From Ferrovum sp. (GTDB lineage: Bacteria; Pseudomonadota; Gammaproteobacteria; Burkholderiales; Ferrovaceae), in assembly GCA_010435995.1 (NCBI GenBank), contig JAAGNR010000022.1, positions 1 to 64,000 on the forward strand: a stretch of 64,000 bases of DNA, in the 5' to 3' direction. The translations under genes and the position numbers were made by a program. The notes beneath the pieces were generated by a model, which did no database searches, was not told where the DNA came from, and saw only the letters and a program-made list of their open reading frames with translations. Positions within the stretch are counted from its first letter, which is position 1; the number at the start of each line of letters is the position of its first letter. Positions 11,587 through 33,483 of this stretch are shown in pieces.

Positions 11587-12111
11587 ATGAGCTCGCTTTC
11601 AAATCACCGCCGCTTGGTTAAATATTTCATTATGTCGGCCACTTCACTCTTTATTGGGGCCATGCACGGGATGCTGCAGGTTTTTCCCCCGATTCGGGCG
11701 TGGTTGGATTCCATTGGCAGTCCCTATGGAGGCCCAGGACACATGATTGACCCTCTGGCCCACGCCCATATGAATTTGGTAGGGGGCGTGGTATCCCTGG
11801 CTATGGGCACCACCTATTACCTCCTGCCGCGCCTCAGCGGCAAAGCCATATATTCCCAAAGATTGGTGGAACATAACTTCTGGTGGTTATTTATGGGAGT
11901 ATATGGATTTTATTCTACCCAAATGGTTTTTGGTATTTGGGAAGGATATCTTATGCTTCATGATCGTAACGCCATGATGGCTGCACACCATCATTACGGA
12001 CCCATCGTTGCCGTCGCCGGTACCTGTATGGCCGTAGGCTTTATTGTTTATTTCTGCAATATCGTACTCACTCTGATGGGGCCCGTTATTGAGGAGCGCC
12101 CCGCTTCCTGA
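11587..12111 (+). CDS. Mini heme-copper oxidase subunit I-like membrane protein (N-terminal helices only)
   Basis: 174 aa; DPLAHAHMNLVGGVVSLAMGTTYYLLPRLSGKAIYSQRLVEHNFWW resembles the helix II region of CcoN/NorB; no CuB-site or helix X motifs. Confidence 0.7.
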   Translation: MSSLSNHRRLVKYFIMSATSLFIGAMHGMLQVFPPIRAWLDSIGSPYGGPGHMIDPLAHAHMNLVGGVVSLAMGTTYYLLPRLSGKAIYSQRLVEHNFWWLFMGVYGFYSTQMVFGIWEGYLMLHDRNAMMAAHHHYGPIVAVAGTCMAVGFIVYFCNIVLTLMGPVIEERPAS

Positions 12112-12516
12112 TCAAGAGGAGGGGACATTGAGCGGGAAATACAGTACCCCGCTCTCTTGATCCTTGGCACATTGTAATCGTACTTGAACGGTTCGCCTTT
12201 CCCCAGGTGATACCAATGCGGCACGCCGATATACTCCAACACGACCATCCTGTATCGCCTGCTTCCATGGATCGGCAGAGGCGGTTCGAATATCGACGAG
12301 GCAACCCGATCCGGGATGTTCGTGAGCGCCGGTAACGATAATTAAAAACTCATCCATCCCATCTTGGGGAGGGCTGGGACGAGTCTGCACTTGAACCTGC
12401 CAGTCTTGCCACTGCTGAGCCTGTGTATCGGCTTGAGTCGTCTCGGGTTGGCCACACGCACTCGCCAAAAATGCACACCCTAACACCAGCCCCTGCCAAA
12501 CTTCAATTTTTTTCAT
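12112..12516 (-). CDS. Predicted lipoprotein, unknown function
   Basis: 134 aa from internal Met of the longer ORF: MKKIEVWQGLVLGCAFLASACGQP (lipobox ASAC); part of the minus-strand oxidase operon. Confidence 0.7.
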   Translation of the reverse strand: MKKIEVWQGLVLGCAFLASACGQPETTQADTQAQQWQDWQVQVQTRPSPPQDGMDEFLIIVTGAHEHPGSGCLVDIRTASADPWKQAIQDGRVGVYRRAALVSPGERRTVQVRLQCAKDQESGVLYFPLNVPSS

Positions 12517-12943
12517 CGTGAAGGACCGCCTGCTTGATTTCGGAATCGGCATCCGTACTGTCATGATCAGGGTTCGGCATGTCCGCTTCGACCACACCAT
12601 ACATACGCACCATAAAATAGACGAAGGAACCTGCCACGGCGATATACACCAACGCCAGGAGAAACCCCCAATCCACCCAGTGTCGAACTTTTCCTGGGCG
12701 GCTTCCCCAAAAGGGGAAAGCGAGCCCAACAGCTACCAGCAGAACCACCACAATCACGGCAAAAAACCAGTAGGGTACTGGTTTTTGGGAAAGAGGAACA
12801 CTGTTCACCAACTCCCAATCCTCTAATCCCCGTTTGGTCTTGCGCTCCTCATCAGTGGCGTAACCGAAGTGGTCCTTGTCCTGCTGCCCCCACTCCGGTT
12901 TGATTTCCGTCAACGAGGAACGAGGATCTTGGGTTTCATTCAT
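12503..12943 (-). CDS. CcoP/FixP N-terminal-like membrane protein lacking heme c motif
   Basis: 146 aa; two TM segments flanking FPFWGSRP; no CxxCH; adjacent to ccoG. Confidence 0.65.
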   Translation of the reverse strand: MNETQDPRSSLTEIKPEWGQQDKDHFGYATDEERKTKRGLEDWELVNSVPLSQKPVPYWFFAVIVVVLLVAVGLAFPFWGSRPGKVRHWVDWGFLLALVYIAVAGSFVYFMVRMYGVVEADMPNPDHDSTDADSEIKQAVLHDEKN

Positions 12944-14244
12944 TTTTGACCTCCCACATGGGCTTCAGAAAAGTGTTGTATGGCGAAGGTATCTACCCAG
13001 CCCTCTACCGGAGCATGGGCAACGATCCTGAAAGCATGAACACCATGGGGCAAACTTGGAGAAATGGACAAAATCACCGACTGCCGCTCTGCTGCACCCA
13101 CCGTAAAGTGTGTTCTTGAGAAATGGTACTCTTGCGGGGTCAACCCTTCCAGCGTTAAAGATACCTCTTCCGGACGATAACGCTTATTGGCAATTTCAAT
13201 ACGGTAGTCAAGATCGTTTGATGCCTGCTGCACTTCAGCCCGGTAAGCGGCCAGATGCATCGGTTGCCAGCTCCATAAGCCCCAACCAAAAAAACTCAAA
13301 CCCAAAGTCAGGATCACGGCCATCCAGCTGGTCCGTGAAGTCAATCCAATCGCATTGTTGCGAAAATGAACCCGAGCTTCCTTCTTCACTTTCTGTTCAC
13401 CAAACCCAAAGCTCAGCAACCCTGGTTGCCCCTTTTTTGCCTGTAGGCGGTTGCAGGCATCGATGCATTCCCCGCAGTTGATGCAGCTATCATAAATGGC
13501 CGTCTTCCGCGGATCGATCTCGATAAAACAAGAGGTCACGCAATAGTTGCATTTTTCGCACGCACTGGAACGGCTGCTGTCATAGCGCACATGTAATGTC
13601 TCACGGGTACGAAAGCTATGTTGCCAGACTCGGTAAACACAGGCAAAACGACACCAAAAGTGGCGAATCACGGCAATATCGATAAAAATGATGAGTACGA
13701 ACATGGCGTAGATCCAGTGCAACGAACCCGCCAATGCCGGGTCCGAGCGCCAGAGCATAAAAGAGAGCACCAACGAAGGATCATAAAAATAGAACAGGGG
13801 AATCACCGCCAGAAACATGGAAGCAAGGACAAAAGACAATCCCAATAAAATCCAGTTGAGGGCACGGTTTTTGGCAGGTGCAATCACTGGCGCATCACCA
13901 TCCAAGCTCACTTCTGCACGCTTCCCCAAGAGACGACGCGTCATGTAGTTGGCCCATTCGGCAAAAATATTCTGGGGGCAAACCCAACCACAAAACACCG
14001 TCCCCGCCGTAGAATAGAGCATGACCATAAGGCTGAGTAGAGTAATCCACAGCCCAGCAATCAGAAAAAAATCGGCAAACCATATCTGTCGGTCCAAAAT
14101 GACCAACGCTCCTGCCCGGGGATCAATACGAAACAAACCCGTGGCGGGGATCAATATCGCCAAAGCCAGTGTCAGCACTTGAACGAAGCGCCGTTGCAGA
14201 TGAAAACGGGTTGAAGTGGGTAAAGAAATATCCATTGCCATCAA
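12940..14244 (-). CDS. ccoG: Cytochrome c oxidase accessory protein CcoG (FixG/RdxA-like)
   Basis: 434 aa; VFCGWVCPQNIFAEW, CEKCNYCVTSCFIEIDPRKTAIYDSCINCGECIDACNRL ferredoxin motifs, C-terminal Ig-like FixG domain. Confidence 0.95.
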   Translation of the reverse strand: MMAMDISLPTSTRFHLQRRFVQVLTLALAILIPATGLFRIDPRAGALVILDRQIWFADFFLIAGLWITLLSLMVMLYSTAGTVFCGWVCPQNIFAEWANYMTRRLLGKRAEVSLDGDAPVIAPAKNRALNWILLGLSFVLASMFLAVIPLFYFYDPSLVLSFMLWRSDPALAGSLHWIYAMFVLIIFIDIAVIRHFWCRFACVYRVWQHSFRTRETLHVRYDSSRSSACEKCNYCVTSCFIEIDPRKTAIYDSCINCGECIDACNRLQAKKGQPGLLSFGFGEQKVKKEARVHFRNNAIGLTSRTSWMAVILTLGLSFFGWGLWSWQPMHLAAYRAEVQQASNDLDYRIEIANKRYRPEEVSLTLEGLTPQEYHFSRTHFTVGAAERQSVILSISPSLPHGVHAFRIVAHAPVEGWVDTFAIQHFSEAHVGGQK

Positions 14245-16886
14245 TTCCTGAAATTCGGCCCCTGTCCAAAGCTTCCATTCTTCTCCGACCGCGCCTCGCG
14301 GTCAAGTGGTGAGCTTTGGAGCAGTGCCTGACGAGTCATTTCCGCGCCATCCCGATCCTGCTGTTCCATCTGCAAATGCCATAACGTACGCAGTACATCA
14401 GTTTGCCACGGAAAACGCTGGGCCAATTTGGCCACCACTTGCTCTCGTTGGACCGCTGGTAGTCTTGCCTCGCCCATTTGGGCCAGCACTTCATCACTCA
14501 AGGCATATCCCACCCAATGATCGGCAGGGTTCAATTCAAAAGCCAAACGTACCAATCGACTGGCCTCCCCCTCCCTCCCCGTCATTCGATCTCGCCAGCT
14601 TTGCACCAAATGATGGGTGGCTTGATATGCTTTCTCAAACTGTATTTTTTGATCTGATCCCAGACCCAACTGCAGCGCAGCCTGATCTGCCGTGGGACGC
14701 TGCTCTAAGAGGTTACCCAATAATGCGTCCAGATTCTCTGGCTGATACTTGACATGGGGCAAATCAAAATCGATCACCGGATGCCATTCTTCCTGAAGTG
14801 AACCTACAGTTTTCGGGATGGGGCCCCAATACCGTCCCATCCAGGTCATGGCCCCTTCACCTCCAGTGACCTTGGCCTGCTGAGATGGATCCAACTGCCG
14901 CAGATTATGTTCTACCGCCGGCCACCCTGCCCAGGAATGACGCGGACCCACCAATGCCAGGTGCATCCCATCGAGAAACAGGCGCGCATCGGGAAATACC
15001 TGACGAAACGTTCTCAGCAAGACTTGGAGAGACGAAGAATCCAATTGGTTCAATGCCAACCACTGCACAAACAAGCCGTCCTCATTCAAATGATCCCGAG
15101 CACGTTGAAACTGTTCACGAGACAGTAACGCCCCGACTCCAGAAAGGTCGGGATGATACAAGTCTCCCACGATCACATCATAAGTATTGCGTGTGGTTGA
15201 TAAGTAGTGACGTGCATCATCAGCATATATGGTGGACTGTCCGAGTACATCTCCATCCACCGGTTGAAACCATTGGCTTGCCGCCGTAATGGCTCCTTGA
15301 GACAATTCCACCGCATCTCGGTGCAGTTTGGGGTACCCTTCTGTACCCGCCAGAGACAGCCCTGTTCCCAAACCCAGAAACAGCACTCTGCCTGCCCCAG
15401 AGTGTAGCAGGAGGGGCAACTCCCCCTGATTGCGTTGGACAAATACCGCGGTAGGCTCGGTCGAGGCATCGTGTCGTTGCAGATCTGTGAGGAGTAAACG
15501 TTGACCATCGGGACGTTCGACCACCTGAGTAATGGCTATGGCATCTTCATACCGATAAAGATCGTGGCTTCCCGCCAGTGTCTGGGGCAAAAGACGCTGG
15601 GCTGAGGGCAGATGCCATAGCAGTCCACCCGCTCCCAGAATAAACAGCACCCCCAGTCCCATGACCGGTTTCCATGGACGCGTCCAAAATAAACTCGCAC
15701 CCAAAATCAGTGCAGCGCTCAAAACCACCGTCCCTGCGGTACCCGTCCAGGGTAACCAGAGAAACCCCGTTACCAATGCCCCGATTGCCCCCCCCACAGA
15801 ATTCACCGCATATAATAAGACACCATTAGTACTTGCATTGTCTGAAGACTGTCCCAAGAGCGGAAACCATAATCCGAAAATGAAAGTAACGGGAAGGGTC
15901 AGAAAAACCAACATGCCTCCTTGCCAGAGCAATGCCTGAAACAAACTCTCGCCATGAGGACTTTCAGCCCACTCTGCTACCCAAGGGAGAACCGCCAGCC
16001 CCGCCAGAATGATTCCACTGGCGAGCCAAGGAAGAAATAATCGCACTCGCTGAAGAGGGTAGCGCGCGCCTATTATGCTTCCCATTCCGATCCCTGAAAG
16101 GAAAATCGCCAAAATCAAAGCCAATACATATTCTGTTCGCAAGAACAAGAGACTAAACAGTCTGGTCCATGCCACTTCAAGTGACAATGCAGCCATTCCC
16201 ATCAAGCCATAAGCCCAAAGTAATTTGGTTTCTGGTCTGGAGGAGCGGACATCTACCGATAATACGGACACGTTGTCCGGTACAGAAAAGCGGGACGATT
16301 CTTCCACTGTGGCCATGATACCCCAACCACATCCCACGAGTATCCCCATAGTGGCCACCCCCTGCAGGGCATGAACCCAGCCCAACCAAGGCAGTAAAAT
16401 AACAGGAAGTAAGGCGCCGAAAACCGCTCCTATGGTGTTAACTCCATACACCATACCTAGCCCTTGGGACGCCCTTCTCTGACGCCATGCTGCCAAAACC
16501 AAGGGGAATCCCGCCCCCAGTGCCATTGCTGGAAGCATCAGTAAGATCATGGATACTAAAGTCAGGCCCGCATGCCAGATACCGATCCCGTAGGGGGAAA
16601 AAACCTTCATCAAAAGATTTTGCTCGAGTGGAGCAATCTGGGGCAAAGCCAGAGAGAAAATGCCGACTCCTACCTCAAGGGCTGAGAGCCACCGCAATGG
16701 GTGTTTAACCCCCTCTCGATTCATCAGAAAGGCGCCTAGGCCCAATCCCAGCATGAAGGCGGCTACGGTAATTACGACCCCAAATACGCTGATACCGAAC
16801 TGCAGGCTGATCATTCTGACCCACAATACTTCATAGGCCAAGCCTACGGCTCCGGATAGCCCGTATAGGGCAAGAATTCCTAACAT
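14241..16886 (-). CDS. Membrane-fused spermidine synthase-like protein
   Basis: About 880 aa; about 14 hydrophobic segments, then SAM-fold VLFLGLGTGLSLAG and DVIVGDLYHPDL plus a C-terminal helical extension; start chosen 2 nt after the upstream stop codon (longer ORF begins at 16925). Confidence 0.85.
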   Translation of the reverse strand: MLGILALYGLSGAVGLAYEVLWVRMISLQFGISVFGVVITVAAFMLGLGLGAFLMNREGVKHPLRWLSALEVGVGIFSLALPQIAPLEQNLLMKVFSPYGIGIWHAGLTLVSMILLMLPAMALGAGFPLVLAAWRQRRASQGLGMVYGVNTIGAVFGALLPVILLPWLGWVHALQGVATMGILVGCGWGIMATVEESSRFSVPDNVSVLSVDVRSSRPETKLLWAYGLMGMAALSLEVAWTRLFSLLFLRTEYVLALILAIFLSGIGMGSIIGARYPLQRVRLFLPWLASGIILAGLAVLPWVAEWAESPHGESLFQALLWQGGMLVFLTLPVTFIFGLWFPLLGQSSDNASTNGVLLYAVNSVGGAIGALVTGFLWLPWTGTAGTVVLSAALILGASLFWTRPWKPVMGLGVLFILGAGGLLWHLPSAQRLLPQTLAGSHDLYRYEDAIAITQVVERPDGQRLLLTDLQRHDASTEPTAVFVQRNQGELPLLLHSGAGRVLFLGLGTGLSLAGTEGYPKLHRDAVELSQGAITAASQWFQPVDGDVLGQSTIYADDARHYLSTTRNTYDVIVGDLYHPDLSGVGALLSREQFQRARDHLNEDGLFVQWLALNQLDSSSLQVLLRTFRQVFPDARLFLDGMHLALVGPRHSWAGWPAVEHNLRQLDPSQQAKVTGGEGAMTWMGRYWGPIPKTVGSLQEEWHPVIDFDLPHVKYQPENLDALLGNLLEQRPTADQAALQLGLGSDQKIQFEKAYQATHHLVQSWRDRMTGREGEASRLVRLAFELNPADHWVGYALSDEVLAQMGEARLPAVQREQVVAKLAQRFPWQTDVLRTLWHLQMEQQDRDGAEMTRQALLQSSPLDREARSEKNGSFGQGPNFRN

Positions 16887-16887
16887 C

Positions 16888-17292
16888 TCAGAAAGGATAG
16901 AACCAGGCCACCCCAACCACGGCATGTACCAACGCTAACGTCATGGATAATCCCGCCAAAATCATATGGGGGATAAACCACGGTTTCCCGTAAATTCCCA
17001 TGCCAATGCCCACTGCACCCGTAGCCAAAACCAGAATAATCAGTGGGATACCCAAAAGAAACATGATCAGCTTGCGCTTTTTATCATCCACAGGAGTAAC
17101 CCCATCATCCTGGTACCCCTGTTGTTTCTTGAAGGACTCCATCATTTGAATGCTGTTCACTGCATTGGAGCCACCAGATCCCTCTGCCCAGATCGGACTG
17201 GAGAACAGGGCAAAAAAAGCCAAAAAAAGCGCAGCTATCATGGTCTGCAATCCACTCTGGACCTTCTGTTTGCTCCCTTCATTGCCTCTCAT
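16888..17292 (-). CDS. Exported/membrane protein with His-containing TM, unknown
   Basis: 134 aa; signal peptide, two TM segments, PHMILAGLSMTLALVHAVVGVAWFYPF. Confidence 0.65.
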   Translation of the reverse strand: MRGNEGSKQKVQSGLQTMIAALFLAFFALFSSPIWAEGSGGSNAVNSIQMMESFKKQQGYQDDGVTPVDDKKRKLIMFLLGIPLIILVLATGAVGIGMGIYGKPWFIPHMILAGLSMTLALVHAVVGVAWFYPF

Positions 17293-17528
17293 GGTTGATC
17301 CTCGGAGGGTAATGTTTTAGTCTCCGGTTTCTTTTTGAAGGAGAAATACCATGCCAGAATTCCCATCAAAATAAACGGCGCAAAAATTCCGATCAGGAGA
17401 AATAAGAATATATTCCATGGGGTATCTACCGTAACATGAAGATAACGGTAACTATCCAGGGCAAATGCCTGAGATATGCCGCCAGCCTGAAGGAGTAGTA
17501 CGAGTAGTAACTTGCGATAGGATATAAT
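17289..17528 (-). CDS. Small membrane protein with apparent non-canonical start
   Basis: Not in the ORF track. Manual translation ...ISYRKLLLVLLLQAGGISQAFALDSYRYLHVTVDTPWNIFLFLLIGIFAPFILMGILAWYFSFKKKPETKTLPSEDQP*; 4-bp ATGA overlap with next gene; no in-frame ATG/GTG/TTG near 5' end (candidate ATT). Confidence 0.5.
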   Translation of the reverse strand: MISYRKLLLVLLLQAGGISQAFALDSYRYLHVTVDTPWNIFLFLLIGIFAPFILMGILAWYFSFKKKPETKTLPSEDQP

Positions 17529-17537
17529 GGTATGAGC

Positions 17538-18656
17538 TCAGTGAGACGTTTGAATGGTACTGGCACAACGAAAGCCATAAAAATCGGACGTCATGTTGGC
17601 AAATGCGCTATCACGATGAAACAGTGAGGTGGAGAATGGATCTCCTTTCCAGGAACCGCCGCGCAAAACCTTATAACTGCGCTTCACGATTTTCTGTTCG
17701 GAAATTTTCAAATCACGATCCTGCGTCGAATCCTGTACGGCCACTTTACCTTGGAACACAATGGTCGGTGCAATGGATCCCGGATACGGGGCAAAATCAC
17801 TGGCAGTCCATTCATCCACATTGCCTGCCAGATCTAAAACTCCATAGGGACTGGCCCCCTGTGGATATGCCGTAACCGGCGAGGTAGAACCCACGTTGTA
17901 ATAAGTATTGAGTTTGGTAGGATCCATGGTGTTTCCCCAAGGCCAACGTCGTCCATCTGCACCTCTCCCAGCGTGTTCAAGCTCGGCTTCCGTAGGCAAT
18001 CGTTTCTGGGCCCATGCGGCGTAGGCTTTAGCGTCGTACCAAGTGACCATGGTTACCGGATGCAGCACGTCCCCCTTAGGAATCCGACCATCCTTCCAAT
18101 TCAATGGGGGTCGATGTCCCGTGGCTGCCACAAATCGAGCATATTGGGCATTGGTGACCAAGTATTTATCAATCGCATAGGATTGCAGTGTCACAGAATG
18201 CTCCGGTTTATCTGGCGAATCAGCTCTATCGAGATTTGTTCCCATCATAAACGTCGCTGCTGGTATGGTAATCATTGTGGCCAGATTTTCCCATTGTTCC
18301 CGCGTCAGCAACTGTTCCGCAGCTTCGACAGTATAGCTCCCATGCACTTCTCCGCCTTCATGCTGTTCATGGAGCTGAATATCTTCGCCTGCCGCTCGTA
18401 TATGATTGCCCTCGTTTTTCGGGTCATAGGAAATCATATGACGCATATCATCCATGCGTCCTGCGCCAAGTTTGATGACGTGTAAGGTACTGCCAATCAT
18501 CACTAATCCAATGCAGGTGACAATTGTTGCTGACCATATTTTGCGGCGCTTCAGGCGTTCTTCTGCTGTGGCAGGAACCCGGGGCTTCAAATCAGGCACC
18601 GCCTTCTCCTTCTTTAGACTGTTCCGCGCGGGAACGGTCGATCCGAGCACGTCCAT
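17538..18656 (-). CDS. Membrane-anchored SUMF1/FGE-fold protein without FGE catalytic cysteines
   Basis: 372 aa; N-terminal TM; IPAATFMMGTNLDRADSPDKPEHSVTLQSYAIDKYLVTNAQYARFV, KRLPTEAELEHAGRG, GVLDLAGNVDEWT, VLRGGSWKGDP, YGFRCAST. Confidence 0.9.
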   Translation of the reverse strand: MDVLGSTVPARNSLKKEKAVPDLKPRVPATAEERLKRRKIWSATIVTCIGLVMIGSTLHVIKLGAGRMDDMRHMISYDPKNEGNHIRAAGEDIQLHEQHEGGEVHGSYTVEAAEQLLTREQWENLATMITIPAATFMMGTNLDRADSPDKPEHSVTLQSYAIDKYLVTNAQYARFVAATGHRPPLNWKDGRIPKGDVLHPVTMVTWYDAKAYAAWAQKRLPTEAELEHAGRGADGRRWPWGNTMDPTKLNTYYNVGSTSPVTAYPQGASPYGVLDLAGNVDEWTASDFAPYPGSIAPTIVFQGKVAVQDSTQDRDLKISEQKIVKRSYKVLRGGSWKGDPFSTSLFHRDSAFANMTSDFYGFRCASTIQTSH

Positions 18657-19101
18657 CAGGTTTCAGCCAACTCGGTGCTCGTCCATAGTATCTCTTGATC
18701 ATGGACTCCCCGATGATCGCACCGATCATGCCTGTTTCCATGGCAAGAATAATGAAAAAACCCCACCATCCCATGGGAATCAAGTGACCACCCTGGGGAA
18801 CTCCACTGATTTCAGCGATATTGAAATAACTGATGCCACGTACAATGAGCGGTGTCACATAACACAACCATTTGCTGCCCTTACCGAAGATAAGTGCGAG
18901 CACAAAATTGGCGATGAACGGTACCAAAAAAACGTCCAGCATCCATGAGAAAGTAAAATAGGAGAAGGGCCCGGTAAAGACCTCTATAGTCACCCCCAGC
19001 AATCGATCGCCAAAATGATTGATGACGGTCGCCACACTCAATCCAAAAAATCCCCGCACCCACTTTCCTGAATCTTTCTCTTGGGGAACAATGATGCTCA
19101 T
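18592..19101 (-). CDS. Multi-pass membrane protein, unknown
   Basis: 169 aa hydrophobic; overlaps both neighbours in operon. Confidence 0.7.
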   Translation of the reverse strand: MSIIVPQEKDSGKWVRGFFGLSVATVINHFGDRLLGVTIEVFTGPFSYFTFSWMLDVFLVPFIANFVLALIFGKGSKWLCYVTPLIVRGISYFNIAEISGVPQGGHLIPMGWWGFFIILAMETGMIGAIIGESMIKRYYGRAPSWLKPDGRARIDRSRAEQSKEGEGGA

Positions 19102-19595
19102 TTTTTATAATCATCCTTGCCAGTCAGCTTCTCATATTCACTCTTGCGAGTCTCTTCCAAATACCAATCCTTGACATGAAGACTGGCGAGATATTTTGCT
19201 AAAGTTCGACGCTCTTCTTCTGGAAGACTGGCAAAAGAGGGCATTCGGTATTCTGGTTTGAGTCGGCTGGGCAAAATGGATTGAGGAGCAGGGGATGAAA
19301 GGTAGGCATAGAGCCATGCTTCTGTACGCAAATCTCCCATGCCATCCAAGGACGGTGAAGGAACGGACTGCATGATGTTTCTCACCGACCATAAGGAATG
19401 GCATTGTCGACAATCATTCTCACGCACCAGATCGGATCCATGCCGTGCCAATTCAGGGCTTGCGGTAGTATAAAAAGGGATACCCTTATCTGCCGCAGGT
19501 CCCGTTGTTGGCCTTGAAAACAGTTGGTTTTGCACTACAGCCGCAATTGCCATCAAACCGATAATACCCAGTACGACCTTTTCCCCTCGCTTCAT
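19098..19595 (-). CDS. Membrane-anchored monoheme cytochrome c
   Basis: 165 aa; N-terminal TM, single CRQCH, distal YRMPSFASL Met ligand candidate. Confidence 0.88.
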   Translation of the reverse strand: MKRGEKVVLGIIGLMAIAAVVQNQLFSRPTTGPAADKGIPFYTTASPELARHGSDLVRENDCRQCHSLWSVRNIMQSVPSPSLDGMGDLRTEAWLYAYLSSPAPQSILPSRLKPEYRMPSFASLPEEERRTLAKYLASLHVKDWYLEETRKSEYEKLTGKDDYKK

Positions 19596-19909
19596 GTGGA
19601 TTTCGCTACCTGCTCGGCCTTTTGTGCAAGCAATTCACTGCGACGAGCTTCCTGCTTAGCTAGGACCTCGCGGCTTTTAGCATATTCTTCAGGGAGCATC
19701 TTATCTTTATCTTTTTCACTGAACACCAGATATTTGATATCTTCATCAAATTGCTCGTTCTTGGCCCCCCAGCGGATACCATAAATGCTCGCGCCGATAA
19801 TCAATCCGCCAACGATGAGCCATAGATAGATGGTCCAACCATCCGGTAAAGTCTCTATAAAATTTCCCATGCCATTTTCCTCGATATCATCGTAAAAGGA
19901 TTTTACCAC
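19592..19909 (-). CDS. CcoS-like oxidase assembly/small membrane protein
   Basis: 105 aa; TM followed by YGIRWGAKNEQFDEDIKYLVFSEKDKDKM, resembling CcoS (WAVxxGQFDDLxxxxxxxLFDDD); C-terminal coiled extension. Confidence 0.6.
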   Translation of the reverse strand: MVKSFYDDIEENGMGNFIETLPDGWTIYLWLIVGGLIIGASIYGIRWGAKNEQFDEDIKYLVFSEKDKDKMLPEEYAKSREVLAKQEARRSELLAQKAEQVAKST

Positions 19910-19997
19910 CGTACCCGTATTGGAAGCATATTAACAGGAAACGTTCCCCTTTCAGGGCGTAACATGATCAAATATCCCCCTGCCCGCCAGATATAGA

Positions 19998-20270
19998 CTA
20001 AAACAAATAGCCCGAGAGCATTTGCGTTGCTCCAAATATCACAGCCACAACCACACCCAATATGATGGCGATGAACATCAGCATTTCACCCACGCGCATT
20101 TTTTCTGGAGCATAGCGTCCCTTCATCAGGGCATAAATAATCCCAGAAAATACTCCGATTCCAATCATCAGGAAAATAAAAATCATGACACTGAAGCGCT
20201 GACTACGCATTCCTTCAATGCTCATATCTACATGCCCAGCTCCAAGGGCAATCATCACATCAGACATCAT
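19998..20270 (-). CDS. Small two-TM membrane protein, unknown
   Basis: 90 aa; two hydrophobic stretches; in oxidase operon. Confidence 0.6.
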   Translation of the reverse strand: MMSDVMIALGAGHVDMSIEGMRSQRFSVMIFIFLMIGIGVFSGIIYALMKGRYAPEKMRVGEMLMFIAIILGVVVAVIFGATQMLSGYLF

Positions 20271-20299
20271 GGTTACAGCCTCAACAGACGAATCGTTCT

Positions 20300-20332
20300 A
20301 AAAAAAAGTGCCATACCGCAATGGTATGGCAC
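20300..20332 (-). terminator. Intra-locus Rho-independent terminator
   Basis: Perfect 10-bp stem GTGCCATACC/GGTATGGCAC with 5-nt loop, followed on the minus strand by a run of T. Confidence 0.85.
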
Positions 20333-20389
20333 TATGACAGTATATTTTTTTCAACGTTCTATTTCATTCACACAAACGTACCGATTTCA

Positions 20390-20497
20390 TTATTTTTTGT
20401 CGAAGTTGTCCACAAAAAAACTGTAGAGAAAAGGAGCAATGAAAGCAATACTGATGGGCAATGCGATTGCCAGTGGGCCGTAATCTAAATCGATCAT
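20390..20497 (-). CDS. 35-aa membrane microprotein (CcoQ-like position)
   Basis: Manual translation MIDLDYGPLAIALPISIAFIAPFLYSFFVDNFDKK*; GGAG RBS upstream; below length cut-off of the ORF track. Confidence 0.6.
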   Translation of the reverse strand: MIDLDYGPLAIALPISIAFIAPFLYSFFVDNFDKK

Positions 20498-20528
20498 TCG
20501 TAAATACTCCTTAGTTAGGTTTCACTAG

Positions 20529-21146
20529 TCAATGATCGTGCTTTGGCTGCCAACTGGTGGGAGGCAGACGCTTAATCATGATAAACACGGACAAGAAGAA
20601 ATAACTCAGATAGAACAAGTCAATGGTATAGCCCTTGTCCCACCAGGGTTGCTGGCGAATGCGTGACCCATCTGCACGATAATTGCCCTCGAAATTGGCG
20701 GTAACGACTTTGTCTCCCACCACTTCGAAATCATGCATATGGGCACCTTTGGATTCTAGTGCCTTGATTTGAGGAGCTACGATCCGCAAATCATCCATGG
20801 TCAGTGGGTGACGCTCCAACAATGCATCATTGGGTGTTCCCTTGTTCATGGCCACAATCCGCGCCATCGCTTCCTTGTCATCCTTGGCAGCCAGGACTTC
20901 AGGCTTATCCATGGAATTGACGTAGGGTTCATACAGCGCTGCCGTAGGTCTTTGCCCCCACAATGGGAAAGTAATGGCAAAGGCAGTTACCACCGTCAAT
21001 CCCACCAACCAGACAACGGGAGCAGGAACAGGGTTGTTATCTTCATGTACCCCACCCAGATTATCATTCTCCCAGAGGACTTCATCCTTGCGTACTTTCT
21101 CTTCATCAGACAGTGTACGAAGGGGTGAATCAAATGACCAACTCAT
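20529..21146 (-). CDS. CcoP-like subunit lacking heme c motifs
   Basis: 205 aa; HEDNNPVPAPVVWLVGLTVVTAFAITFPLWGQRP typical of the FixP/CcoP N-terminus; no CxxCH; second TM at C-terminus. Confidence 0.78.
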   Translation of the reverse strand: MSWSFDSPLRTLSDEEKVRKDEVLWENDNLGGVHEDNNPVPAPVVWLVGLTVVTAFAITFPLWGQRPTAALYEPYVNSMDKPEVLAAKDDKEAMARIVAMNKGTPNDALLERHPLTMDDLRIVAPQIKALESKGAHMHDFEVVGDKVVTANFEGNYRADGSRIRQQPWWDKGYTIDLFYLSYFFLSVFIMIKRLPPTSWQPKHDH

Positions 21147-21213
21147 AGTGACCTCCTTTTGTAATCACCTGCTGCGAGTGATCGCGGCAGGTGCTTTTAT
21201 GACGCATTATGGA

Positions 21214-22173
21214 TTATTTGAGTGACAGAACGAAATCGATCAAAGCTCTGGCATCAGAATTGCTCGCGTACATGGGGACTTCAGGCGCTGTAATCCGCTT
21301 TCCTTCCACATACTCGTTGTATTCTGCACGCCATTGATCAAAGTTGATCTTTTGACCCTTAGCATCCACAGGGCCCCACAGATAGTCAAAGCGAGGCATG
21401 ATGGAGTGCGGCTGAACCAAACGTGGATTGAAGAAGTGCAGCATCATCCATTCACGAGAGGAATTCCGCGATCCCACATGAAGAATATCTGGAGCTTTAC
21501 GATCAGAGCCAAACGCTGTGGGTGATTCCCCATTAAAGTCGCCCAGCATAGGAGGCGCACCAAACACTTGCCAATCCTGGGTTTCTTCTGGCAGAAGTGT
21601 ATGGCACCACCAGCATCCTTCACGCACGAAAATGGATTTTCCATAAGAAGCATGGTAGGTATTCTCATCACCTGCCGCCTTCACTACTTCATCTGGAGTC
21701 CATCCCTTCGTTGCCGAAGCGTTTTCAATGTAGAACTGCTTGGTCCCATCACCTTGTGGCTCAGAATTCAGCACAAACACTGCGCCTTGTGCCTTGCTGG
21801 CTTCGCCAATCCGACCCTTGTCTTGGCTCAACTGTTCAACGATTTGCCCCAGGTTATCCGGATGATCCACCCCGTTAGGAAGTGGCGTGCCTGCAGGGTA
21901 AACATAGGCGGTGACTGGATTGGTCATGGGTTGCCCAGTTTTTGGATCCACCTTGAGGGTAACCCGAACTGGACGATTATCACCGCGCAGAAATGGGTCG
22001 GCCAAACTGAAACCCGACTCATGTCCTGCCCATAGCTGCTTATCCAGCGCCATCTCTGTAGCGTTCACATTTCTCAAATCGAAGCTGGGCATGAACAGGG
22101 TAATTGTCATGGAACCACCCAGAGCCAACCCAAAAAACCGCGCTCCGATCTTGTACTCTCTAAAATTGACCAT
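21214..22173 (-). CDS. ccoO: C-family oxidase CcoO-like monoheme cytochrome c subunit
   Basis: 319 aa; N-terminal TM; EGCWWCHTLLPEETQDW heme c site; immediately downstream of ccoN. Confidence 0.88.
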   Translation of the reverse strand: MVNFREYKIGARFFGLALGGSMTITLFMPSFDLRNVNATEMALDKQLWAGHESGFSLADPFLRGDNRPVRVTLKVDPKTGQPMTNPVTAYVYPAGTPLPNGVDHPDNLGQIVEQLSQDKGRIGEASKAQGAVFVLNSEPQGDGTKQFYIENASATKGWTPDEVVKAAGDENTYHASYGKSIFVREGCWWCHTLLPEETQDWQVFGAPPMLGDFNGESPTAFGSDRKAPDILHVGSRNSSREWMMLHFFNPRLVQPHSIMPRFDYLWGPVDAKGQKINFDQWRAEYNEYVEGKRITAPEVPMYASNSDARALIDFVLSLK

Positions 22174-22207
22174 TTGATTTCTCCTCTAAATCAGATCGGT
22201 GAGCAAA

Positions 22208-23614
22208 TTAGCGCTCGTAGGCCAGCTCGTGTGCCATGCGACCTTCTGGAATGACTGTTCCTGCGCGTGCCGTCATCCACATGTTGTAGAGCCAGAAGCA
22301 GTTTCCAGTAAACACCAAGGAACCACCAATCCAGCGTGCAATCATGTAGGGATGCTCTGCCATCACCACATCGATATAAGGCACTTCATAAATCTTTCCT
22401 GCGCCTTGAATCAGACCGGCAATAGTCATGGAAACCCAGTAGGTAGTAAAGCCAATCAAGAGGAACCAGAAATGGAGATTACCCAAGGTCAACGAATACA
22501 ACTTACGCTTCAGCAAAGTTTGCAATCCCAGGTATACGGCGGCCGCTTCCAGGAATGTGGAGAACCCCAGCAACGCCAAGTGTGCGTGAGCTACGATCCA
22601 GCCCGTACCATGGATATACCAGTTGATAGCGCGTGTTTGCTGGAAACCACCTTGCATGTTCAGCGGAATGGCCATCAAGCAACCCGTTACGGTGAAGCGG
22701 ATTTCAAGGTTTTCCACAAACATGTTCCATTTGCCTTGCATGGTCAACAGAATGTTGGACACGAAAGCAACGGCGGGTACCAGAATCAGCACACCTTCCA
22801 CAGAGGCGAAGGATTTGAGCCACTCAGGCAAAGGAGCAGACATCAAATGATGAGCAGCGGGTGTGGAGTAAAACACCACGACGGACCAGAAATGCAAGTG
22901 CCCGATGCGGTGGGAGTACAGTGGGTTACCGGAAACTTTAGGAATGGTGTAGTAAGCAATAGCTGCAGCCACTGGCGTAATCCACAAACCCAACACATTA
23001 TGAGCAAACCACCAGGTCAGATAGGCTTCTGTCAGTCCGGTCAGATGGAAAAACTCTGGCAGATTTCCGACGATGAACACGATGCTGACCATGAATACGG
23101 CCGTACCGAAAAACCAGTTGGTGGTGTAGATCCCCTGAGTTTTACGATGAATAATCGTCATCCAGACATTGATCCCAAGGGGAATGGTCATGAATGTGGC
23201 GATATACAGATCGATGAACCAAGGAAAGTCTGAGTACTCACGACCAGAAGTCATCCCGGACCAGAGCAACGTCAACCCCAGAGACAGACCCACATTCCAG
23301 AGGAACGCGTTCCAGATCCCGAGTTTTTCCGACCACAACTTGGTGTTACCCAAAGCGGGGGTCATATACATCATGGCCATGGCAAACGCCATTGAAATCC
23401 AGCCAAAAATCACTGCATGAACGTGTACTTGGCGCATATGACCAAAGGACACAAACTCCAGACCTGTTACAAAATCAGGAAATGCCAGTTTGCTGGCGTT
23501 GAATGCGCCCAAACCAGTTCCGATCACAAACCATACAATTGCAGAGAAGCCAAAGTAAACGGCGGCGGCTCCCTGCGGTATATCTTCGCTTTTTGCAAAT
23601 AGGTACTTGAACAT
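22208..23614 (-). CDS. ccoN: C-family (cbb3-like) heme-copper oxidase subunit I
   Basis: VHVHAVIFGW, WWFAHNVLGLW, HFWSVVVFYSTPAAHHL, IVAHAHLALLGF; start set at MFKYLFAK with AGGGGGG RBS (ORF track begins at 23644). Confidence 0.93.
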   Translation of the reverse strand: MFKYLFAKSEDIPQGAAAVYFGFSAIVWFVIGTGLGAFNASKLAFPDFVTGLEFVSFGHMRQVHVHAVIFGWISMAFAMAMMYMTPALGNTKLWSEKLGIWNAFLWNVGLSLGLTLLWSGMTSGREYSDFPWFIDLYIATFMTIPLGINVWMTIIHRKTQGIYTTNWFFGTAVFMVSIVFIVGNLPEFFHLTGLTEAYLTWWFAHNVLGLWITPVAAAIAYYTIPKVSGNPLYSHRIGHLHFWSVVVFYSTPAAHHLMSAPLPEWLKSFASVEGVLILVPAVAFVSNILLTMQGKWNMFVENLEIRFTVTGCLMAIPLNMQGGFQQTRAINWYIHGTGWIVAHAHLALLGFSTFLEAAAVYLGLQTLLKRKLYSLTLGNLHFWFLLIGFTTYWVSMTIAGLIQGAGKIYEVPYIDVVMAEHPYMIARWIGGSLVFTGNCFWLYNMWMTARAGTVIPEGRMAHELAYER

Positions 23615-23677
23615 CTTGAACCCCCCTGTTATATCTAAAACCAAAAGACTGTTGAGCGAATATTGTTATTAGAATGA

Positions 23678-23782
23678 TTAATGATGGCCTTGACGCTTGC
23701 GCGGCATCAGCACATACCAAGATAGAAGCATGCTGGAAAAACCCAGAGATATCCCCAGTACTGCTGCAATCGTATTTAGCAT
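23678..23782 (-). CDS. 34-aa membrane microprotein upstream of ccoN
   Basis: Manual translation MLNTIAAVLGISLGFSSMLLSWYVLMPRKRQGHH*; GGAG RBS 4-8 nt upstream. Confidence 0.6.
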   Translation of the reverse strand: MLNTIAAVLGISLGFSSMLLSWYVLMPRKRQGHH

Positions 23783-23832
23783 TTACGTCTCCTTATCCTT
23801 AGATTTTCTGCGCGGTAATCGTTAGTGCAGGC

Positions 23833-24108
23833 TTATGCTGCATTTTCAATGGCGTAATGCCGTTGAAATGCAATAGCCAGAATACCGATATAGGCAAAGC
23901 CGAATACCAGCATACACCAGTCAATAAACCCGGTGAATGTATGAGGATCGTAGGCCTGACCATTCCAGCCACCCCAGTCACCGAAGTCGCCGCGTCCCAG
24001 AAAGCACATCAGGGCTGCCCCAAACACACTCCCATTACCCATTCCGGTCAGCATACCTCCAACGATCATGACCCAGAATCCGCGTGAAATGATGGATTTT
24101 TTTTGCAT
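23833..24108 (-). CDS. Small two-TM membrane protein, unknown
   Basis: 91 aa; first gene of the minus-strand oxidase operon. Confidence 0.6.
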   Translation of the reverse strand: MQKKSIISRGFWVMIVGGMLTGMGNGSVFGAALMCFLGRGDFGDWGGWNGQAYDPHTFTGFIDWCMLVFGFAYIGILAIAFQRHYAIENAA

Positions 24109-24297: not shown

Positions 24298-25305
24298 TTA
24301 TGGCTTGATGACCTTGGTGCTTCGCAGCTTCGCTCGGACAATCAGAAATGCCATCACTGCGACGGATACGGTTACTCCAATATCAAAGGTTCCTGTCATG
24401 GGAAAATGGGGTGTTGGATAGGTTCCTGATATCCAGGTGTAGCGCTCGATCCAGGTCCCCGTCACGATGATACAGGCTATGGTAAATATGACTTTTGGGT
24501 TATGACGACTGAAAGGGAAGACCAGCGTGACGAACGGAATAATAAATTTCATGACGAAGAATGCCCAGAAAAGCGGACTGTAGTCACCGTACTGCATTTG
24601 ATAGATACGCCCTGTTTCTTCGGTGATATTTCCGTACCAGATGATCAGGTATTGCCCAAAGAAGGTGTAAATCCAGAGAATGGTGAAGCCCAGCATCATT
24701 TGTGCCAGGTAATTGAAAACCTGCAGGCGTATAGGCTGCTTGATCAATCCGGTACTTTGCAAGGTATACAGCAGTATCACAAATGAGGCGAGAAACATTC
24801 CTGACACACTGACGATATAGTTCACCGAGAACATTGAACTTTCCCAGTTTGGCAACAGTGTCATTTCAAAATCCCACGCCACCATGGTGCAGTAAAGCAC
24901 ATGAATAAAGGGAATGATTGATGCTAGAATTTTAAATCTTGCCATGTTTTCGGGAGATTGTTCAGAGGTTTTCTGCATTCTCACAAAGGCACCATACGCA
25001 ACCCCCACCACGATGATCCCGGCAATTTCTCTTACACGCAAGAATTTCAGGTTATTCCATTTGGGTAAATGTTCAAATGAGCCCACCCATGGAAACGTCA
25101 ATTCTCCACCGAAGAGCAGAATCAGAAGCAGTACAACGGCCAAGGGGTAAAGCGCAAAAAATGCCACGGCGATATGTCGAACTTCATAGCGCCACTTGGC
25201 ATTCACCAAGTGCAACAGGCAGGGTAACGCCACTCCGGCAAGACATAGATGGAGGACGATGAGAAAATCCACGGTCAAAACTGACCAACTGGCGAATGGA
25301 ATCAC
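24298..25305 (-). CDS. actF: Alternative complex III membrane subunit ActF
   Basis: 335 aa, about 10 TM; last gene of actABCDEF order. Confidence 0.85.
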   Translation of the reverse strand: MIPFASWSVLTVDFLIVLHLCLAGVALPCLLHLVNAKWRYEVRHIAVAFFALYPLAVVLLLILLFGGELTFPWVGSFEHLPKWNNLKFLRVREIAGIIVVGVAYGAFVRMQKTSEQSPENMARFKILASIIPFIHVLYCTMVAWDFEMTLLPNWESSMFSVNYIVSVSGMFLASFVILLYTLQSTGLIKQPIRLQVFNYLAQMMLGFTILWIYTFFGQYLIIWYGNITEETGRIYQMQYGDYSPLFWAFFVMKFIIPFVTLVFPFSRHNPKVIFTIACIIVTGTWIERYTWISGTYPTPHFPMTGTFDIGVTVSVAVMAFLIVRAKLRSTKVIKP

Positions 25306-25325
25306 GGGACAGCTCCTTTTTCAGC

Positions 25326-25874
25326 TTACTTATTCTCTGTGGTGGTGACTTCGCGTTTTTTAGCGGTAGGATCGGACAGCAGTCCATGGCGCACATAATT
25401 GACCACATCCCAACGCTCGGAAGGAGACATATCATTGCCATAGGATGGCATCAGTGCTCCACCAAAACTGATGTGTCCCCAGATATATCCTTCTGGAACT
25501 TCTTTTTGTACCCGTTCTGCCGTCAAATCAAAAGGGCGTACGATCAGCTTTTCTCCCACCAACCCATCTCCGGTCCCCGAATCTCCATGGCAGGGAACAC
25601 AGTAAATCTTGAACATTTCCCGCCCATTGGCCACGGATTTGGCTGTAGCTGGATTGGGGTTCGGCAAAGTCATGGCCGCGTCCCCGTCATGCACATAAGG
25701 CGTGGTTGGCGTTCCTGTCATGGGAACTGAGCGTTCAGGAAAGGGTCGTACAGAATCTGGGCCTTCCTGAGGTTTGACGCTGATCTGATTCGCCATGTCC
25801 TTACTCCATGGCCATGCCATTGCCAAAGAGGGAAGCAGAGCCAGAAGTGGTATCCAGCGAAGTGAGGATTTCAT
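25326..25874 (-). CDS. actE: Alternative complex III monoheme cytochrome c ActE
   Basis: 182 aa; signal peptide, YCVPCHGDSGTGDG, MPSYGNDMSP. Confidence 0.9.
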   Translation of the reverse strand: MKSSLRWIPLLALLPSLAMAWPWSKDMANQISVKPQEGPDSVRPFPERSVPMTGTPTTPYVHDGDAAMTLPNPNPATAKSVANGREMFKIYCVPCHGDSGTGDGLVGEKLIVRPFDLTAERVQKEVPEGYIWGHISFGGALMPSYGNDMSPSERWDVVNYVRHGLLSDPTAKKREVTTTENK

Positions 25875-26398
25875 CGTGCGTTATCTCCCATGATTTCGAG
25901 AGGCTTGTGACGGCCAAGAATTTCATTAATTTGCGGTAAAGATGCGGGATCGGTCTTGACCAATATGCCGATCTTATCTTCGGACACGCTGGCGTTATAC
26001 AGAGGACTCCGATTACCGGGTAGCTTCATGGCCACAAAAGTAGACAACACGGTCATCAGCACTCCCGAAAGAATGAAGAGCTCGTAGGTCAATACCATAT
26101 CAGGTGGGAAAGGAACTACGGGGCGACCTCCTCGTACCTGATAGATGAAACTGGCCTGGGCTGAGGCAATCAGCACCAACCCGGTGGTCGGCCCGAGCAA
26201 TACACCCAGCAGGGTAAACCACTGGATATATACGGGCCGAGGTCCCAGAAGCTCGCTCAGTTCCGGATGATCGATAGGCGATTTAATGATCACATCATCC
26301 ATCCTGAAACCTGAAATTCCTGATGATTTGAGATCTTTAAGGGCATTGGCCGCTTCATCCGGATCGGAATAAAGTGCCAGCGTATGTGTTTTTTTCAT
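25871..26398 (-). CDS. actD: Alternative complex III subunit ActD (DUF3341-like)
   Basis: 175 aa; ALYSDPDEAANALKDLKSSGISGFRMDDVIIKSP, two TM. Confidence 0.88.
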   Translation of the reverse strand: MKKTHTLALYSDPDEAANALKDLKSSGISGFRMDDVIIKSPIDHPELSELLGPRPVYIQWFTLLGVLLGPTTGLVLIASAQASFIYQVRGGRPVVPFPPDMVLTYELFILSGVLMTVLSTFVAMKLPGNRSPLYNASVSEDKIGILVKTDPASLPQINEILGRHKPLEIMGDNAR

Positions 26399-27867
26399 CA
26401 GATTTTCCCCCCATTCATTTCAGGTATGGCACCCAATGCAGTCTGATGCGCTGGTGCCTGAGCTCCGTGGAGTTTGTCATGCATGTTTTGCTCATGGACC
26501 ATTTCCTTGACTTCGTACATGGACACGCTGGGAAAGATCTTGCAGTAAAGCATAAATAGCATGGTGAACCAACCAAAACTACCGGCAACGATTCCCCACT
26601 GGACCCAGCTGGGCCACCATCCTGCAGTCCATGTCCATGGATAGTGAGATTTGGCGAAAGTGGGGGTAATGATCTGGAAGCGTTCCAGCCACATACCGAC
26701 ATTCAGGATCAGGGAAATTATGAGGAGAACTACATAATTCTGACGCACAAAGCGAATCAACAAAGTAAAAGGCATGACCATGGCGCAGAAAATCATTCCC
26801 CAGAATTGCAGCGCATAGTCCCCCGTAGCACGGTATACCAAATCCTGCCGCGCAACTTCATCACTGCCATACCAGGTCGTGGCATATTCGATCAGATCGA
26901 GATATGTCCACACCATGGCAATGGCGAAGGTCATTTTGATGAGCTTGTTGAGAATGGGTTGTGTCATATAGGCTTCAAAGCGAAACACATATCGCAACAC
27001 GATGAACAGCGTGATAATCCCAGAGCATCCCGAATACAAAGCACCCAGAACAAAGTAGGGAGGGAATGAGGTGACATGCCATCCGGGGTTTTGGGACACA
27101 GCAAAATCGGTGGACACGATGGAGTGGACGGACACTGCCAGAGGCATCAGAAAACATGCCATGGTCATATAGGCCACCTTGAAATTGCCCCACTGACGAT
27201 CCGTACCTTGCCACCCTAAGGACAGAAACTTATACAGGGCACGCCGTGCTCCCTTGGCATTATCGCGACAAATGGCCAAATCTGGAATCATCCCCATATA
27301 TAAGAATAGTAACGATGAAGTCAGATAGGTTCCAATGGCCGTGGCATCCCATACCAGAGGCGAAGTAAAGTTGGGCCATACCCAGCGCTCATTGGGATAG
27401 GCCACCACATAATAAAATTGCCATAAACGGCCCATGTGCACTAAGACGAACAATGCGGCCGTCATCAGCGTAAAGGTGGTCATGGCCTCAGAGTATCGGT
27501 ATATGGGTTTACGCCAATCAGCATGAATGATGTGCAGCAATGCCGACAGCAAAGTTCCGGAGTGTCCCATACCTATCCAGAAAATGAAGGTGGCAATATA
27601 CAGACCCCACACCTGCGGATTATTTAGATCAGAAACTCCCATCCCTGTCTGGTACTGATACACCTCGCAATAGACCCCAAATGAAAACAGGGCCAAGGCC
27701 GAAAAGAAGATAATCCAAAATGCAGGTCGCGGCTTTTCCAGACTGCGCAGCACATCTTTGTTGATCTGCGCCCAATTGACATCCTCTCCCAAATCTTTCT
27801 GTTTAGGAACAAACTTTCTTTCTATTTGCACATCCATCTGTGGATGGCTAGGTACAGTATGACTCAT
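26398..27867 (-). CDS. actC: Alternative complex III quinol-binding NrfD-like subunit ActC
   Basis: 489 aa, about 10 TM; FWIGMGHSGTLLSALLHIIHADWRKPIYRYSEAMT. Confidence 0.93.
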   Translation of the reverse strand: MSHTVPSHPQMDVQIERKFVPKQKDLGEDVNWAQINKDVLRSLEKPRPAFWIIFFSALALFSFGVYCEVYQYQTGMGVSDLNNPQVWGLYIATFIFWIGMGHSGTLLSALLHIIHADWRKPIYRYSEAMTTFTLMTAALFVLVHMGRLWQFYYVVAYPNERWVWPNFTSPLVWDATAIGTYLTSSLLFLYMGMIPDLAICRDNAKGARRALYKFLSLGWQGTDRQWGNFKVAYMTMACFLMPLAVSVHSIVSTDFAVSQNPGWHVTSFPPYFVLGALYSGCSGIITLFIVLRYVFRFEAYMTQPILNKLIKMTFAIAMVWTYLDLIEYATTWYGSDEVARQDLVYRATGDYALQFWGMIFCAMVMPFTLLIRFVRQNYVVLLIISLILNVGMWLERFQIITPTFAKSHYPWTWTAGWWPSWVQWGIVAGSFGWFTMLFMLYCKIFPSVSMYEVKEMVHEQNMHDKLHGAQAPAHQTALGAIPEMNGGKI

Positions 27868-27919
27868 GGTTAACTTTTCCCTGAATGGTGGTGATCGTCA
27901 ACGATTATTTTGGATCTCA

Positions 27920-28768
27920 TCACGACGCCATATTGCGCAGTCTTTCCAAATACACAATGGATGGATAGGTGTTCAGGTCTTCCAAAATACGGTATCCGCG
28001 AATCCCGTCCTCGGTTTTTTCCTGAACATTCTTAGCCAGATCCACTTGTTGTGTTTTCCACATTTTCGCGACCTTCGAGTTTTTATCTGCCAAATTACCA
28101 AAAGTTATGGCTGAGGTTGGGCACGCTTGGGCACAGGCCGTGACCACTTCTCCATCGGCCAGAATTCTTCCATCTGTCTTTGCCTTGTCCATTCCGGCGC
28201 GCAATCGTTGCATACAGAACGTGCACTTTTCCATGACGCCTTTACTGCGTACAGTTACATCAGGATTCAGTTGGAGCTCGAGAGGATTGGGCCAAGCGCG
28301 TTCAGGGTAATTCCACCAGTTGAAGTAACGCACCTTGTAGGGGCAGTTAGCAGAGCAATAGCGCGACCCCACACACCGGTTATACACCTGAGTATTCAAC
28401 CCATCGGGCGAATGGTGGGTTGCTCCCACAGGACACACGGGTTCACAGGGAGCGGCTTCGCACTGCTGGCACAGCATGGGCAGATACTGGGCCCCACGCT
28501 CTGGAAATTCGGTTTCCAGCGTTTCCCCTTCTCCCCAGTAACGTTCGATCCGGATCCAGTGCATGGCATGCCCTTTACCGAACCGTTCCTTACCCACTAC
28601 GGGCAAGTTGTTTTCGGCATAACAGGCCACGGTGCAGGCATTACAACCGATACAAGAATCGAGATCGATGACCATAGCCCACTTGTAAGGAGAGTCGTCA
28701 TACTGACCTTCGTAGGGGCGACGCGTCCGAAAGTTGCTCCAGTTTTTAATGAGATTACTGAGTGACAT
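27920..28768 (-). CDS. actB2: Alternative complex III iron-sulfur subunit (ActB FeS half)
   Basis: 282 aa; DSCIGCNACTVACYAENNLP, CQQCEAAPCEPVCPVGAT, CVGSRYCSANCPYKVRYFNW, CTFC...CAQACPTSAI. Confidence 0.93.
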   Translation of the reverse strand: MSLSNLIKNWSNFRTRRPYEGQYDDSPYKWAMVIDLDSCIGCNACTVACYAENNLPVVGKERFGKGHAMHWIRIERYWGEGETLETEFPERGAQYLPMLCQQCEAAPCEPVCPVGATHHSPDGLNTQVYNRCVGSRYCSANCPYKVRYFNWWNYPERAWPNPLELQLNPDVTVRSKGVMEKCTFCMQRLRAGMDKAKTDGRILADGEVVTACAQACPTSAITFGNLADKNSKVAKMWKTQQVDLAKNVQEKTEDGIRGYRILEDLNTYPSIVYLERLRNMAS

Positions 28769-28770
28769 GC

Positions 28771-30978: not shown

Positions 30979-31004
30979 ATCAATCTCCTAAATTGGCCGC
31001 CGTA

Positions 31005-33385: not shown

Positions 33386-33425
33386 TCTTCCTGGTTTCAG
33401 GTTTCGATCAACGGTTGATGTTCCC

Positions 33426-33464
33426 AAAAACCCGCGTGCCTTGTGCTCGCGGGTTTTTTATTTA
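33426..33464 (+). terminator. Rho-independent terminator
   Basis: AAAAACCCGCG...CGCGGGTTTTTT. Confidence 0.85.
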
Positions 33465-33483
33465 ATTGACAGGAATTTGACTG

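Follow-up and report, generated by a model that had tools for sequence, protein, structure and literature searches.

RESULTS

Gene content and conservation of the oxidase module

The window analyzed here, a 64,000-nucleotide stretch of contig JAAGNR010000022.1, belongs to the genome of an acid-loving iron oxidizer of the genus Ferrovum (Ferrovaceae). Among named organisms, Ferrovum myxofaciens and further members of the family are closest to it. The original prediction placed a noncanonical C-family oxidase operon with an enlarged complement of small membrane proteins at positions 17538 to 24108. It listed CcoN- and CcoO-like genes, a third subunit without heme c motifs, a monoheme cytochrome c, a CcoS-like protein, and a SUMF1-domain protein, all of which we found there on the minus strand. 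Two microproteins of 34 and 35 amino acids, one preceding CcoN and one following P, had been missed and add to the set. The predicted extent, however, captures only part of the system. The minus-strand core spans 12112 to 24108, which adds h, i, X, CcoG, p, and H, and the module also takes in a gene on the plus strand (n2) and a displaced part at 32645 to 37290. Altogether, the module has about 20 genes, most of them unnamed, and is common to iron- and nitrite-oxidizing bacteria. The genes of the core and its flank are as follows.

23833-24108, minus: a, 91-amino-acid small membrane protein in which a GNGSVFGA motif is conserved; its gene opens the structural unit
23678-23782, minus: b, 34-amino-acid microprotein with a single transmembrane (TM) helix
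22208-23614, minus: CcoN (N), catalytic subunit from a divergent C-family clade, aligning end to end with the CcoN of PDB entry 3mk7
21214-22173, minus: CcoO (O), with one heme c (CWWCH) and an extra N-terminal alpha/beta domain of about 110 residues
20529-21146, minus: P, heme-less CcoP-like protein, predicted to consist of a FixP_N-type TM helix, a helical domain in the periplasm, and a second TM helix
20390-20497, minus: q, 35-amino-acid microprotein with one TM helix; its gene closes the structural unit
20307-20333, minus: terminator-like hairpin (11-bp stem and T-run) between the structural and accessory units
19998-20270, minus: m, 90-amino-acid protein with two TM helices
19592-19870, minus: S, CcoS/FixS-like protein with one TM helix (profile match to canonical CcoS-type protein, 1.5e-5)
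19098-19595, minus: c, N-terminally membrane-anchored monoheme cytochrome c (Cytochrom_C, 2.6e-6)
18592-19101, minus: t, 169-amino-acid multi-TM protein with no assigned family
17538-18599, minus: F, membrane-anchored SUMF1-domain protein (FGE-sulfatase, 2.7e-52)
17289-17525, minus: h, small TM protein whose start codon is uncertain
16888-17292, minus: i, 134-amino-acid membrane protein whose last TM helix contains H-x13-H
14241-16925, minus: X, protein of about 12 to 14 TM helices fused to a spermidine-synthase-like domain (Pfam, hydropathy)
12940-14244, minus: CcoG (G), polyferredoxin (Fer4_18/Fer4_5, weak FixG_C; profile matches to canonical CcoG up to 7.5e-30)
12503-12943, minus: p, 146-amino-acid protein with two TM helices, related to P (hhalign P versus p, probability 91%)
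12112-12516, minus: H, lipoprotein near ccoG
11587-12111, plus: n2, four-TM protein that looks like a single arc of the heme-copper oxidase fold (COX1, 5e-10)

To characterize the distribution of this module, we searched with a CcoO alignment and obtained 213 relatives from named genomes. Of these, we looked at the top 80, which include Gallionella, Sideroxydans, "Candidatus Nitrotoga," other Nitrosomonadales, and Gammaproteobacteria. Gene profiles were seeded with the window proteins and iterated on the loci, and counts were taken over 44 loci from outside the Ferrovaceae. These loci depart very little from one gene order, c n a b N O P q m S c t F h i X G p H n, and the same order occurs in 11 loci from a different class-level group, probably Zetaproteobacteria. 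Profile searches detected a, b, N, O, P, q, m, S, and c in all 44 loci; in the standard order, a immediately precedes b and N. The next five genes (t, F, h, i, and X) were detected in 41 to 43 (t in 41, h and X in 43 each). Fewer loci yielded G, p, and H, in part at least because the loci stop at this point. A rearranged version occurs in the Burkholderiales peat metagenome-assembled genome SbB2, where b a N O P q c n m lie on one strand and c and S on the opposite one.

Because gene order is kept in 44 loci outside the family, chance can be ruled out. An operon peculiar to Ferrovum was likewise rejected, given how widespread the module is. Within the Ferrovaceae, CcoN is 87 to 98% identical across other genera and its neighbors, including the microproteins, are also kept. 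One Ferrovaceae genus has only a canonical CcoN, with about 30% identity to that of the window. In the window itself, most of the genes from S to H overlap or almost touch.

Family placement of CcoN

CcoN scored 255 bits against COX1 and 226 bits against the ccoN equivalog model, for which the cutoff is 583. It shares about 30 to 31% identity with the canonical CcoN of related genomes. His64, His205, Tyr249, His255/256, and His343/345 are kept in 54 to 55 of 55 module CcoN sequences. These residues are the histidines of heme b, heme b3, and CuB, together with the helix-VII tyrosine beside the CuB histidines. A phylogeny against C-family and nitric oxide reductase (NOR) references, which had been proposed as a check on the prediction, recovered the module CcoN as one clade (SH-like approximate likelihood ratio test support, 99). 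This clade is sister to canonical CcoN plus a related group, with the NOR sequences outside. The root of the tree is weakly placed (support, 12) because the NOR branches are too long, and an attempt to decide by rooting whether the module oxidase is the "proximal" form of cbb3 was abandoned for this reason.

It is conceivable that a nitric oxide reductase, or another enzyme that does not reduce O2, is built on a CcoN-like subunit. The sequence is divergent, it weakly matches the NorB subunit of cNOR (E = 1.5e-4), and it has monoheme cytochrome c partners. This alternative is nonetheless very improbable, since CcoN groups with C-family oxidases apart from NOR, the helix-VII tyrosine is invariant, a CcoO subunit exists, and the enzyme is the only cytochrome c oxidase detected in an aerobic iron-oxidizing lineage. 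A NOR-like enzyme was accordingly rejected on residues and tree, and at the level of sequence and tree the assignment of CcoN to the C family can be regarded as settled.

The window genome has four COX1 matches: the module CcoN, two short n proteins, and CyoB. The last belongs to a CyoB-type bo3 quinol oxidase (G000:C4:12359-13702, locus L001) and is the sole other full-length heme-copper oxidase found in this genome. Because the remaining matches are n proteins and CyoB, the module oxidase is the only cytochrome c oxidase detected in it.

Putative structural genes and the conserved hairpin

The FixO match on CcoO (62 bits) is confined to residues 177 to 266. The protein has a single CxxCH, making it monoheme, and both CWWCH and SIMP are conserved. 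The extra N-terminal domain is predicted with a local distance difference test score (pLDDT) of about 90. A Foldseek search against PDB returned no known fold for this domain or for P, a null result that says little, as both models are partly weak and CcoO residues 177 to 239 have a pLDDT below 50.

As had been predicted for the third subunit, P lacks heme c motifs, with CxxCH in none of 56 orthologs. Several P orthologs from the other class-level group, at the matching gene position, score above the Pfam FixP_N cutoff. Among closer orthologs, 9 of 29 match FixP_N at E < 0.01, and hhalign aligned the N termini of P and CcoP with 57% probability over 33 columns. P is best read as a CcoP that retained its anchor helix, lost both hemes, and carries a second, C-terminal TM helix. 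A search for plasmid carriage of P returned no match.

An ATG start was found in 54 of 54 b sequences and 56 of 56 q sequences, a Shine-Dalgarno-like motif precedes 44 of 54 and 55 of 56, respectively, and substitutions in both are biased toward third codon positions. We considered whether genes of nearly equal length might be relatives, pairing b with q and m with a, but rejected both pairs.

A hairpin followed by a T-run was found in the gap between q and m in 48 of 54 loci, compared with 24 of 162 shuffles, and in 0 to 2 loci for each of seven other gaps. Because a, b, N, O, P, and q precede this conserved terminator-like element, we infer that they form the complex. The genes after it (m, S, c, t, F, h, i, X, G, p, and H) would then be mainly assembly factors.

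Absence of canonical CcoP, CcoH, and CcoI

We looked for a canonical diheme CcoP with CcoH and CcoI elsewhere in the genome, a finding that would have undercut the prediction. FixP_N, FixH, and the N-terminal domain of CcoI (PF12156) had no match in the available assembly of the window genome. Nor were they found in Ferrovaceae that carry only the module, including genomes that are 99 to 100% complete. All three are present in the Ferrovaceae genus with the canonical oxidase. One exceptional member of the family has both the module and a canonical CcoN with FixP_N and FixH, and has no PF12156 match. The claim that CcoI and canonical CcoH are missing, made for the window, therefore extends to the available assembly and to near-complete relatives.

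We extended this comparison to 50 genomes from the other class, where PF12156 was found in 0 of 20 module-only genomes, with a genome bearing two module copies counted among them, versus 29 of 30 genomes with canonical CcoN (Fisher P = 4e-13, a value that overstates independence, as the compared genomes are related). CcoI tracks the canonical oxidase and not the module.

These results bear on an alternative in which the oxidase is a standard cbb3 enzyme, the genes for its diheme CcoP, CcoH, and CcoI lie at other sites in the genome, and the small genes are bystanders. CcoN, CcoO, CcoG, and a CcoS-like gene are indeed recognizable, and the genome containing the window is 87% complete. Yet the three domains are missing from that genome and from its module-only relatives, and two class-level groups keep the small genes in a conserved order. 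The explanation is largely refuted, and we give it the least credence of those considered.

Accessory and neighboring genes

Several accessory proteins resemble known cbb3 factors to different degrees. FixS scored 16.4 bits on S, under its 23.1-bit cutoff, and was weak in 11 of the 12 members scanned. The lipoprotein H had no FixH match in any of 14 members scanned; it was rejected as CcoH, and because of this result its label is positional only. F was rejected as a formylglycine-generating enzyme because the copper-binding catalytic cysteine pair is missing; its only conserved cysteines are C29, in the TM anchor, and C345, with no neighboring pair. The H-x13-H motif of i is present in 56 of 56 orthologs. 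This spacing is known from diheme cytochromes b, and the motif is possibly a heme b site.

The remaining module genes and their neighbors are as follows.

9788-11214, plus: second SUMF1-domain protein, followed by a SCO1/SenC copper chaperone
24298-31619, minus: complete alternative complex III, actA (five hemes) B1B2CDEF, directly upstream of the oxidase
32645-33385, plus: diheme c4-type cytochrome (Cyc1-like), displaced module part, adjoining the module in 32 loci
33484-34062, plus: second membrane-anchored monoheme cytochrome c, paired with n1
34065-34574, plus: n1, four-TM single-arc COX1-like protein (COX1, 4.7e-13)
34579-35106, plus: thioredoxin-like lipoprotein (CSVC), module neighbor in 29 loci
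35131-35586, plus: 151-amino-acid membrane protein with no assigned family, module neighbor in 31 loci
35818-37290, minus: 490-amino-acid membrane protein (type of about 480 amino acids) with no assigned family, module neighbor in 29 loci

In the window, the displaced part is split from the main module by the inserted alternative complex III. In Ferrovaceae this complex adjoins the oxidase, whereas in most other loci it does not. A gene for a protein like high-potential iron-sulfur proteins (31945 to 32250, minus), possibly an electron carrier in iron oxidation, sits next to the gene for the pentaheme ActA, in the stretch between alternative complex III and the c4 cytochrome. SCO1 was rejected as a module gene because it, together with the second SUMF1-domain gene, is closely linked to the module in Ferrovaceae only.

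The n proteins are stand-alone four-TM units whose profiles match the N-terminal, middle, and C-terminal thirds of CcoN, which mirrors the threefold pseudosymmetry of the oxidase fold. Their place in the system could be read in two ways. The same oxidase might use the anchored cytochromes c and single-arc n proteins as structural subunits, either as a modular replacement of CcoP or as a separate b/c module for electron input, instead of as assembly factors. In most other loci the "c n" pair lies upstream of a and so adjoins the structural unit, the HxH pair of n1 is invariant (H64/H66 in 37 of 37), and the cytochromes c are membrane anchored. However, one of these cytochromes sits in the accessory unit past the hairpin, and an HxH pair might equally serve heme transfer during assembly. 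We consider the structural role a serious possibility, slightly short of an even chance.

DISCUSSION

The original prediction of a noncanonical C-family oxidase is upheld and extended by these results. Very probably, the module supplies a Ferrovum-type iron oxidizer with its terminal cytochrome c oxidase, an O2-reducing heme-copper enzyme of the C family that falls in a separate clade and comes with dedicated subunits and maturation proteins. Ferrovum probably uses it as its main cytochrome c oxidase, and the same may hold for other iron oxidizers and for "Ca. Nitrotoga."

Several considerations weigh against this interpretation, apart from the relatedness of the genomes compared for PF12156. 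That domain is only one part of CcoI, and a divergent P1B ATPase could still serve. The absences rest on near-complete relatives because the window genome is itself incomplete. The loci were found via CcoO, and the profiles were iterated on those same loci. The clade is described here from gene sequences, and the division into subunits and assembly factors draws on gene order and a predicted hairpin. Finally, the system is partly known already: CcoN and CcoO of Nitrotoga, Ferrovum, and Sideroxydans were annotated earlier as ordinary cbb3.

With these points in mind, we propose a mechanism for the module oxidase. The complex would consist of a, b, N, O, P, and q, while the genes past the hairpin would be expressed at lower output and serve mainly in assembly. 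The c4 cytochrome (Cyc1), the anchored monoheme cytochromes c, or both would deliver electrons to the heme c of CcoO, from where they would move through heme b to b3/CuB. The two anchored monoheme cytochromes may replace the two hemes of CcoP. CuB would be inserted without CcoI, via module proteins, SCO1, or both, and proton pumping is assumed by analogy with the C family. The full architecture would be that of a C-family oxidase built from six or more structural subunits, two of them about 35 residues long and one a CcoP that has lost its hemes. It would combine input from separately anchored cytochromes c and single-arc b-type proteins of the heme-copper fold with a CuB route free of the CcoI ATPase. 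We hold this combination tentatively, judging it somewhat more likely to be wrong in some part than right in all. The prediction that follows is cbb3-type copper insertion without CcoI and electron entry without a diheme CcoP.

Parts of this system appear to have been encountered before. For Ferrovum JA12, the accessible part of a genome report describes CcoN and CcoO only and proposes that colocalized cytochromes c replace CcoP (Ullrich 2016, PMC4725956). The JA12 cluster and the module share these features and the organism family; the small genes, a heme-less P, and the absence of CcoI and CcoH do not figure in that part of the account. A cbb3 oxidase has been described for Nitrotoga fabula (Kitzinger 2018), and an N. 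fabula genome carries the module. In the literature covered, which was partial, we did not find the whole set described as a CcoI-independent oxidase.

"Proximal" and "distal" forms of cbb3, a usage that follows a subtree of Ducluzeau 2008, have also been reported for Sideroxydans ES-1 and Zetaproteobacteria (PMC7029218, PMC8788666) and differ in subunit composition (PMC8788666). In Sideroxydans ES-1, the "proximal" ccoN/O are upregulated on Fe(II)-citrate, and one cbb3 cluster contains a Cyc1 homolog (PMC8788666). Those groups likewise hold the module as one of their two cbb3 forms, and the module, like the ES-1 cluster, includes a Cyc1 homolog. It is probably the "proximal" cbb3, a match made by literature description only. 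A biocathode study of Tenderia reported Cyc1, a polyferredoxin, and hypothetical proteins in regions syntenic with Mariprofundus, along with a highly expressed noncanonical complex IV; these regions would appear to be the same module.

A suite of about 20 genes in conserved order was flagged in Sideroxydans ES-1 and Mariprofundus PV-1 with no function named, 14 of its genes having homologs in Leptospirillum (Emerson 2013, PMC3770913). Like the module, it comprises about 20 ordered genes, some for heme proteins and most hypothetical, in the same two groups. The two are probably identical, as matched by description and not gene by gene. Our reading would give a likely function to a large suite noted in 2013 in unrelated iron oxidizers. 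Since that function is likely O2 respiration, the mystery suite can now be tested as one machine.

Among the closest known systems is the canonical ccoNOQP-ccoGHIS of Pseudomonas stutzeri (PDB 3MK7), from which the composition of the operon had been predicted to differ clearly. The two share the CcoN fold and its catalytic residues, a monoheme CcoO, CcoG, a protein weakly resembling CcoS, and a CcoP-type N-terminal helix, which the module retains in P. CcoI has been presented, in the title of one paper, as the central hub of cbb3 biogenesis (PMC8475189). In contrast to the canonical system, the module combines a CcoN of about 31% identity and a heme-free P with the absence of CcoH and CcoI, and it brings an extra CcoO domain, candidate subunits of 34 and 35 residues, and about 12 more dedicated genes.

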